The notes under the pieces were generated by a model that saw only the letters and a list, made by a program, of their open reading frames with translations, ran no database searches and was not told the DNA's origin. Shown piece after piece: positions 28,470 through 33,434 of a DNA stretch of 64,000 nucleotides (position 1 is the first letter of the stretch; every line of letters starts with the position of its first letter). The DNA is from Jhaorihella thermophila (GTDB taxonomy: Bacteria; Pseudomonadota; Alphaproteobacteria; Rhodobacterales; Rhodobacteraceae), in the NCBI RefSeq assembly GCF_900108275.1, contig NZ_FNVD01000001.1, positions 62,001 to 126,000 on the forward strand, read 5' to 3'. The translations under genes and the position numbers were made by a program.

Positions 28470-29018
28470 TCAGGAAGCGGTTTCGACGGAAACCGACTCG
28501 AGATACTTCAGGACGTTTTCGGGCGAGGATTCGCCATAGGGATCTTCGCCGTGGTTGTCCTCGCGGCCGGGTTCCTCGAACCAGGCTTCGATCACGCCGT
28601 CGTTGACGATGGCGGCGTAACGCCACGACCGGTAGCCGAAGCCGAGGTTGTCCTTGGCCACCAGCATGCCCATCAGGCGGGTGAAGGTGCCCGACCCGTC
28701 GGGGATCACCTTGACGTTTTCCAGCTTCTGGTCGCGCGCCCAGGCGTTCATGACGAAGCTGTCGTTCACCGACATGCAATAGATTTCGTCGATGCCCAGT
28801 TCCTTGAAACGGGCATGGTTCTTTTCATAGCCGGGCAGCTGGTAGGTCGAGCAGGTCGGCGTGAATGCGCCGGGCAGCGAGAACAGCACGACGCGCTTGC
28901 CGGCGAAATAGTCCGCCGTGGTCATGTCCTGCCAGCGATAGGGGTTGGGGCCGCCCACGCTTTCATCGCGCACGCGGGTCTTGAAGGTCACGTCGGGAAC
29001 GCGCACACCAGCCTTCAT
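28470..29018 (-). CDS. Prx5-type peroxiredoxin
   Basis: A 182-residue thiol peroxidase of the Prx5/AhpE-like group, reducing hydrogen peroxide and organic peroxides, usually with glutathione/glutaredoxin. The peroxidatic Cys56 lies in SLPGAFTPTCS, with the conserved Thr three residues before it and an Arg later (VNDSFVMNAWAR region). No second obvious resolving cysteine near the C-terminus was seen. I chose the ATG at 29018 because GAGGT precedes it; an upstream ATG at 29045 would add nine residues. A near-perfect Irr-box-like palindrome lies 77 bp upstream. katG is next door. Confidence 0.92.
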   Translation of the reverse strand: MKAGVRVPDVTFKTRVRDESVGGPNPYRWQDMTTADYFAGKRVVLFSLPGAFTPTCSTYQLPGYEKNHARFKELGIDEIYCMSVNDSFVMNAWARDQKLENVKVIPDGSGTFTRLMGMLVAKDNLGFGYRSWRYAAIVNDGVIEAWFEEPGREDNHGEDPYGESSPENVLKYLESVSVETAS

Positions 29019-29086
29019 GATATCTACCTCGTTTCCTTGGGTCATTTCCGGAATCGGATGGCGCCCGATCCCGCTCGCCGTGGCTG

Positions 29087-29103
29087 TTTAGAATGATTCC
29101 AAA
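29087..29103. promoter_or_regulatory. putative iron control element (Irr box) upstream of the peroxiredoxin gene
   Basis: The 17-bp sequence TTTAGAATGATTCCAAA matches the alphaproteobacterial ICE/Irr consensus TTTAGAA-N3-TTCTAAA at all but one of 14 fixed positions. Its centre is 77 bp upstream of the chosen start codon. Confidence 0.55.
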
Positions 29104-29187
29104 CGCGCTGCAACGCGAAAATGAGGGACGTGAAAAAGGGCCGCAGCGCGCGCGGCGCCGCGGCCCCCGGTTGCCCGGTTGTGGGCG

Positions 29188-32433
<3,246 letters not shown>

Positions 32434-32471: not shown

Positions 32472-33434
32472 ATGCGTCCGCGCGATCTGAAGATCCCCGA
32501 ACAGCGTCACCCCGAAAAGGCGCACCGGCCAGACAACGCCCAGCCGAAAAAGCCCGACTGGATCCGCGTCCGCGCGCCGGGCGGCAAGGCTTACGCCGAA
32601 ACCCATCGCATCATGCGCGACAACGGGCTGGTCACCGTCTGCGAAGAGGCCGGCTGTCCCAATGTCGGCGAATGCTGGTCGCAGCGCCACGCCACCATGA
32701 TGATCATGGGCGAGATCTGCACCCGCGGCTGCACATTCTGCAACATCGCCACCGGCAAGCCCGACGCGCTCGATGCGTTCGAACCCGGCCGGGTGGCGCA
32801 GGCCGTGGAAAAGCTGGGGCTGAAACATGTCGTCATCACCAGCGTGGACCGCGACGACCTCGAAGACGGCGGCGCGGAGCACTTCGCCCAGACGATCCGC
32901 GCGGTGCGCCACCGTTCGCCCGGCACCACGATCGAGATCCTGACGCCCGACTTTCTGAAATGCGCGCCGTCGGCGCTGGAAACCGTGGTGGCGGCGAAAC
33001 CGGACGTGTTCAACCACAATCTAGAAACCGTCCCCGGCCTCTATCCCGAGGTGCGCCCCGGCGCGCGCTATTTCCACTCGCTGCGGCTGTTGCAGCGGGT
33101 CAAGGAACTGGACCCGTCGATCTTTACCAAATCGGGCATCATGGTGGGCCTGGGCGAAACCCGCCAGCAGGTGCTTCAGGTGATGGACGACATGCGCGCG
33201 GCGGATGTGGATTTCCTGACCATCGGCCAGTATCTGCAACCCACGCCCAAGCATCACGCCGTGGATCGTTTCGTCACGCCCGAGGAATTCGCGGCCTATG
33301 AAAAGGCGGCCTATGGCAAGGGCTTTCTGATGGTGTCCGCCACGCCGCTGACCCGGTCGTCCTACCATGCCGGCGACGACTTTGCCCGCCTGCGCCAGGC
33401 GCGCATGGAACGGCTCGCCGGCGCGTCGGCGTGA
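32472..33434 (+). CDS. lipA: lipoyl synthase
   Basis: A 320-residue radical SAM enzyme that inserts two sulphurs into octanoylated lipoyl domains. The auxiliary cluster motif [12 protein letters not shown] (about 57-68) precedes the radical SAM motif CTRGCTFC (about 83-90), and the end carries the [10 protein letters not shown] motif whose serine ligates the auxiliary cluster. Complete. Its substrates include the SucB lipoyl domains encoded at about 52-53 kb. Confidence 0.97.

Follow-up and report, generated by a model that had tools for sequence, protein, structure and literature searches.

Which signal controls a peroxiredoxin gene that stands next to katG and has a palindrome resembling an Irr box in front of it? 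We analyzed a stretch of 64,000 nucleotides from Jhaorihella thermophila (the window), for which the original prediction had proposed that the peroxiredoxin is under iron/haem control through Irr while the neighboring katG is under OxyR, so that two peroxide defenses are split by signal. The ICE/Irr-box-like palindrome lies exactly where it had been placed, at 29087-29103 (no strand assigned), and its described setting is also right: the peroxiredoxin gene occupies 28470-29018 and katG about 29188-31371, both on the minus strand.

Sequence of the palindrome and its frequency in the genome

The window sequence at 29087-29103 is TTTAGAATGATTCCAAA, in which TTTAGAA and TTCCAAA flank a central TGA; read on the minus strand, in the sense of the gene, it is TTTGGAATCATTCTAAA. 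One mismatch separates it from the ICE consensus TTTAGAANNNTTCTAAA. As had been claimed, a single fixed position differs from TTTAGAA-N3-TTCTAAA; the change is T to C at position 14. The resulting distal half, TTTGGAA, is found in 21 of 68 orthologous boxes (from the best 80 of 408 loci plus the window), and the difference is thus a common variant.

At up to three mismatches to the consensus the window contains this one site, whereas shuffled versions contained 0.09 on average and 9 of 100 shuffles had one. Genome-wide scans were run as pattern and family searches. The 3.77 Mb genome holds 16 sites: two with one mismatch, two with two and 12 with three. A reversed-pattern control gave 21 sites in the same genome, more than the real pattern, and the three-mismatch sites are therefore noise. 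At one mismatch or fewer, about 0.012 sites would be expected from base composition alone, a figure that ignores AT clustering. The two sites observed in this motif scan, which the original prediction had called for, are the one in the peroxiredoxin promoter and one directly before mbfA (NF045676, 575 bits), with the sequence TTTGGAACCATTCTAAA. The two-mismatch sites belong to the isc-suf region, one upstream of iscR and the other within the iscS coding region. Each of the four sites at two mismatches or fewer thus either belongs to this gene or corresponds to a known or predicted Irr site.

The ICE inside iscS (G000:C44:443731-443747; L084:1501-1517) matches in position the Irr-bound P3 promoter of R. 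sphaeroides. A chance origin for it was considered and dropped, since it is the equivalent of the P3 box confirmed by gel shift in the pertinent passages of PMC6956336. No nfuA-type site was recognized among the J. thermophila sites with up to two mismatches. ICE boxes do stand before nfuA-like genes in four relatives (L129, L130, L132 and L133), with Nfu_N and NifU domains shown for L129.

Conservation in orthologous promoters

The orthologue set comprised the best 80 of 408 loci, and with the window it gave 81 promoters of 200 bases each. The original prediction had staked itself on the motif recurring in orthologous promoters, and it does recur, in 68 of the 81. At up to one, two and three mismatches the box was present in 10, 37 and 68 promoters; these counts are not independent events, as the 80 loci are related. 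Dinucleotide shuffles of the same promoters gave means of 0, 0.05 and 0.6 at the three thresholds, with a maximum of 2/81 in 20 shuffles at up to three mismatches. Two further controls share the relatedness of the loci. With the dyad permuted 100 times at constant composition, a mean of 0.94 and a maximum of 10 promoters matched at up to three mismatches. When the gap between half-sites was changed to 0-2 or 4-8 bases, 11 promoters or fewer matched, and conservation was confined to the 3-base gap.

An alignment was made from the 68 promoters, the 13 of 81 without a box at up to three mismatches being left out. The 14 fixed columns average 1.41 bits, and the columns from -100 to about -12 upstream average 0.09. 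The distal half is the most conserved part, with G and A at box offsets 4-5 in 68 of 68 promoters; the proximal half has lost the symmetric C in half of the orthologous boxes.

We also scored the site with a position matrix built from 13 boxes before mbfA, iscR, nfuA and di-haem cytochrome c peroxidase genes. It contains no peroxiredoxin box; its training sites were picked with the ICE pattern, which makes it independent of the peroxiredoxin boxes and not of the motif shape. The training genes of L130 and L133 were called nfuA from the first residues of the protein only. Among the relatives' ICE loci (n = 16), L131, L138, L140 and L144 have no gene assignment, and L139 was kept out of the matrix. 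The window box scores 28.8, within the range of the training boxes (24.0-32.2, n = 13), and the next best site in the window scores 6.3. At 14 bits or more the matrix recognized 69 of the 80 peroxiredoxin promoters (best 80 of 408), with three matches elsewhere in 791,812 bases. A recognizable box is missing in about 7 of these 80 relatives. Irr was present in all 14 genomes checked, box-less and box-bearing, in one of them as two partial matches below the cut-off, and box loss there is therefore not explained by loss of Irr.

Other arrangements of the motif were seen along the way. The promoters of L101, L102 and L104, from small AT-rich genomes, each hold two ICE-like palindromes before the peroxiredoxin, perhaps cooperative sites. 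A relative without this peroxiredoxin orthologue at the cut-off used has an ICE box at L139:1501-1517, with a gene for subunit I of cytochrome bd oxidase (PF01654) 52 bases downstream.

Position of the box within the promoter

A -35-like hexamer, TTGCAG, occupies 29108-29113 (minus strand) and places its TTG 10 bases ahead of the box. It is supported by the orthologue alignment: 62 of the 68 promoters (best 80 of 408 plus the window) have a TTG 10 or 11 bases ahead of the box, on its gene-distal side. The putative -10 region, TAAACA at 29085-29090 (minus strand), was placed by spacing and by the orthologues; it leaves a 17-bp spacer and overlaps the gene-proximal half-box. In the orthologues that half is often TTATAAA or TTATAGA. 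Overlap with the -10 would explain why the proximal half drifts to these forms while G and A of the distal half stay fixed. The box thus takes up the spacer of the promoter and extends into the -10 region, which is a repressor position. A promoter scan with strict consensus did not list this -35/-10 pair and gave a weak pair downstream, at 29045-29017.

The likely start codon of the peroxiredoxin is the ATG at 29018, which follows a GAGG ribosome-binding site, rather than the in-frame upstream ATG at 29045; the box accordingly ends 68 bases upstream of it. Between katG and the peroxiredoxin a G+C-rich hairpin with a T-run, a likely terminator, is found at 29131-29168 on the minus strand (-30.2 kcal/mol, z -1.97), so that the peroxiredoxin is most likely transcribed from a promoter of its own. 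No second conserved block was seen in the 100 bases upstream of the box (mean 0.09 bits, 68 promoters). We also looked for an OxyR operator upstream of the peroxiredoxin and rejected it: there is no conserved block in the whole set, and none either in the subset of 18 loci that have both the box and an adjacent oxyR.

The peroxiredoxin and its neighbors

The gene encodes a Prx5-type peroxiredoxin of 182 aa with a Redoxin fold (PF08534) and the peroxidatic cysteine in PGAFTPTC. All 80 orthologues (best 80 of 408) retain Cys56, and 77 of the 80 retain Cys81. The closest solved structure is the peroxiredoxin half of HI0572, the Haemophilus hybrid Prx5-glutaredoxin (1nm3, E 2.7e-49).

The katG catalase-peroxidase gene (29188-31371) has no ICE in its promoter by the matrix scan of the window. 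A LysR-type gene is divergent from it at 31471-32400 on the plus strand; its best structure matches are OxyR and it has the redox pair Cys200 and Cys210. OxyR control of katG is plausible from these features. The LysR-type gene is followed by lipA (32472-33434, plus strand), named by reading the sequence. Gene neighborhoods were compared in the best 80 of 408 loci, of which 66 are longer than 10 kb. The peroxiredoxin has katG close by in 3 of the 80, an oxyR-like gene no more than about 5 kb away in 21 and a lipA relative nearby in 71. Typically lipA precedes the peroxiredoxin in these loci, and a convergent oxyR often lies downstream. The window departs from this order: lipA is split from the peroxiredoxin by katG and oxyR, and the peroxiredoxin has kept its box. 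Given how often lipA is near, the katG-oxyR pair was probably inserted here. We rejected lipA as the gene served by the box, because the -35 is on the lipA side of the box and because, where katG-oxyR splits lipA from the box, the box remains with the peroxiredoxin.

Shimia gijangensis (L062), one of the three loci with katG nearby, has the same katG-terminator-peroxiredoxin order, and its katG is preceded by a perfect box, TTTAGAATGCTTCTAAA, with a TTG ten bases before it. This ICE is at L062:2515-2531 (katG: NF011635, 1227.6 bits) and suggests predicted Irr control of the catalase-peroxidase in that species. The proposed splitting of two peroxide defenses by signal fared less well than the box itself. 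In the window the arrangement may stand as a local state, and at most as that, given the perfect ICE of the Shimia gijangensis katG; a clean split finds no support, with katG near the peroxiredoxin in only 3 of the best 80 of 408 loci. It is weakened further because Bradyrhizobium Irr is degraded by H2O2 as well as by haem, as described in parts of PMC4902296, so that an Irr branch can report peroxide besides iron. We regard the link of the box to the neighboring katG as incidental.

Irr in J. thermophila and across the class

The genome encodes Irr (L097), with matches over the cut-off to both NF045678 (210.9 bits, cut-off 150) and NF045677 (204.3 bits); the ORF divergent from irr is fabA-like, as judged by reading its sequence. 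Searches of the genome turned up three Fur-family genes, those of Irr, a Fur/Mur-like protein (L096) and a Zur-like protein, with no separate PerR among them. The haem-binding motifs of Bradyrhizobium Irr are an N-terminal Cys-Pro and HxH. In J. thermophila Irr the Cys-Pro motif is absent (the only cysteine is Cys69) and the His cluster HDHPHFY is present at residue 91. In R. sphaeroides, gel shifts show Irr binding to mbfA and ccpA; the binding is weak, at about 0.8-0.9 uM (sections of PMC3413700). Gel shifts in the same species found Irr on the iscS-internal P3 site but not on the predicted iscR P2 box (both from portions of PMC6956336), and a good box is therefore no guarantee of Irr binding.

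A class sample of 241 genomes contained a full-length orthologue of the peroxiredoxin in 31, J. thermophila included; G155 and G236, which align partially and from residue 28 on, were left out of this count. Irr (E 1e-30 or better) was found in 26 of the 31 peroxiredoxin-bearing genomes vs. 124 of the 210 others (Fisher p 0.005, ignoring relatedness). In the 30 peroxiredoxin-bearing genomes besides J. thermophila, a box at a level unreached by shuffles was present in 12 of 25 with Irr and in 0 of 5 without; this contrast (p about 0.06) is suggestive and alone not significant. Genome G028 is a 13th box-bearing genome, with irr, the box (score 28.1), a short MIP-like ORF and the peroxiredoxin in a row. 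At this locus (L145, G028:C93:7300-9300) all elements are on one strand, and the MIP/aquaporin-like and peroxiredoxin frames overlap. The box-bearing genomes outside Rhodobacteraceae, G028 counted, fall into nine families as labelled.

Proposed regulation and alternative explanations

The identification of the palindrome as an Irr/ICE box is strongly supported by comparison: Irr is present in the genome, an equal site occurs only before mbfA, and orthologous promoters conserve the box. From the sequence, its conservation, its place in the promoter and the presence of an Irr gene we infer Irr binding, the direction of regulation and the signals. The palindrome is very probably an Irr operator in the spacer of the peroxiredoxin promoter, overlapping the -10, at which Irr would repress and from which haem or H2O2 would release it. 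Bound Irr on this site would block RNA polymerase; since occupation of the site would exclude the polymerase, repression is the expected direction. In iron- or haem-poor cells Irr would persist, occupy the promoter and keep the peroxiredoxin low. With plentiful haem, or when H2O2 destroys Irr as in the Bradyrhizobium work, the peroxiredoxin would be released together with mbfA, and iron export and peroxide removal would rise together after Irr removal. The peroxiredoxin is probably part of the iron programme of the cell.

The conserved block could instead be nothing more than the core promoter, made up of the TTG and an AT-rich -10, with the resemblance to ICE arising as a by-product. A -35-like TTG and a -10-like stretch do stand exactly there, and the proximal half drifts to TATAAA-like forms. 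However, the most conserved part is the distal half (G/A in 68/68), located in the spacer where sigma-70 needs no sequence; other dyads and gaps score nothing, and the site is recognized by the matrix trained on boxes of other genes (mbfA, iscR, nfuA and cytochrome c peroxidase). We consider this explanation highly improbable. Almost as improbable is binding by another Fur-family protein, with Fur/Mur-like or PerR-like activity, in place of Irr. Boxes of Fur-family proteins resemble one another and a Fur/Mur-like protein is encoded; yet the box matches known Irr target sites, irr adjoins box and peroxiredoxin in G028, and a separate PerR is missing from the three Fur-family genes found.

The effect of binding may also differ from the one proposed. 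Irr might activate the peroxiredoxin, or share its control with OxyR, and Irr is said (by Rudolph in 2006) to be able to act positively. Dual control would agree with the oxyR-like gene that 21 of the best 80 of 408 loci have no more than about 5 kb away, and with H. influenzae pgdX, which is OxyR-regulated and adjoins oxyR in the account given in part of PMC3511568. On the other hand, the box sits between -35 and -10 and not upstream, the 100 upstream bases contain no second conserved block (mean 0.09 bits), and the window leaves a mere 20 bases or so between the T-run of the terminator and the -35. Activation or dual control therefore seems unlikely to us.

Significance of the predicted target

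We rate the peroxiredoxin, on sequence evidence, as a new predicted target in the known Irr (ICE) regulon. A search of the literature on Irr and peroxiredoxin, covering titles and abstract openings, did not return this target by name; an earlier prediction is possible, for instance by Rodionov et al. in 2006, who reportedly predicted Irr sites in Alphaproteobacteria. The word peroxiredoxin is absent from PMC3413700, PMC2864753 and PMC10374146, and the peroxiredoxin passages of PMC8007024 make no link to Irr.

If repression by Irr is true, a peroxiredoxin that is widespread in marine Rhodobacterales and in nine or more further families of Alphaproteobacteria would be added to Irr targets such as mbfA and cytochrome c peroxidase. 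Irr would then be a combined iron-and-peroxide switch that frees iron export and peroxide removal together. It could also bear on the R. sphaeroides irr mutant, which is more peroxide-resistant, yet without Irr binding to katE (both in passages of PMC3413700). A wider idea starts from Haemophilus, where a PgdX-type enzyme has been proposed to switch OxyR off. In Alphaproteobacteria this OxyR-associated peroxiredoxin might have moved from OxyR to Irr; its amount would be set by iron/haem, and by peroxide via Irr destruction, so that both gain and duration of the OxyR response would be adjusted to iron status, beyond a mere splitting of two defenses. We put this forward tentatively and hold it to be rather doubtful.

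Comparison with known systems

The nearest parallel is mbfA with its ICE in Alphaproteobacteria, which has the same 17-bp palindrome as a promoter box and the same regulator gene. MbfA is an iron exporter, whereas the J. thermophila target is a non-haem thiol peroxidase with a predicted Irr box. The R. sphaeroides mbfA transcript begins inside its own Irr box, according to the section on it in PMC3413700, and offers a measured parallel to the occluding position proposed here. The ccpA gene of R. sphaeroides is alike in coding for a peroxide-reducing enzyme with an Irr box, and gel shifts showed that Irr binds its fragment; CcpA is a haem enzyme with a start about 40 nt downstream of the box (the same source, in part), whereas the J. 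thermophila peroxiredoxin needs no iron and has its box within the promoter core.

PerR is a Fur-family repressor that controls peroxide-defense genes, peroxiredoxins and catalases among them, via a similar palindrome. Here the sensor would be Irr, which responds to haem, and PerR was not found among the three Fur-family genes. PgdX (HI0572) of H. influenzae is the closest solved relative of the peroxiredoxin domain, and both genes are near oxyR; PgdX carries a glutaredoxin domain and the J. thermophila protein does not. While pgdX is an OxyR target in the passages of PMC3511568 that treat it, the only conserved operator of the J. thermophila peroxiredoxin is the ICE.
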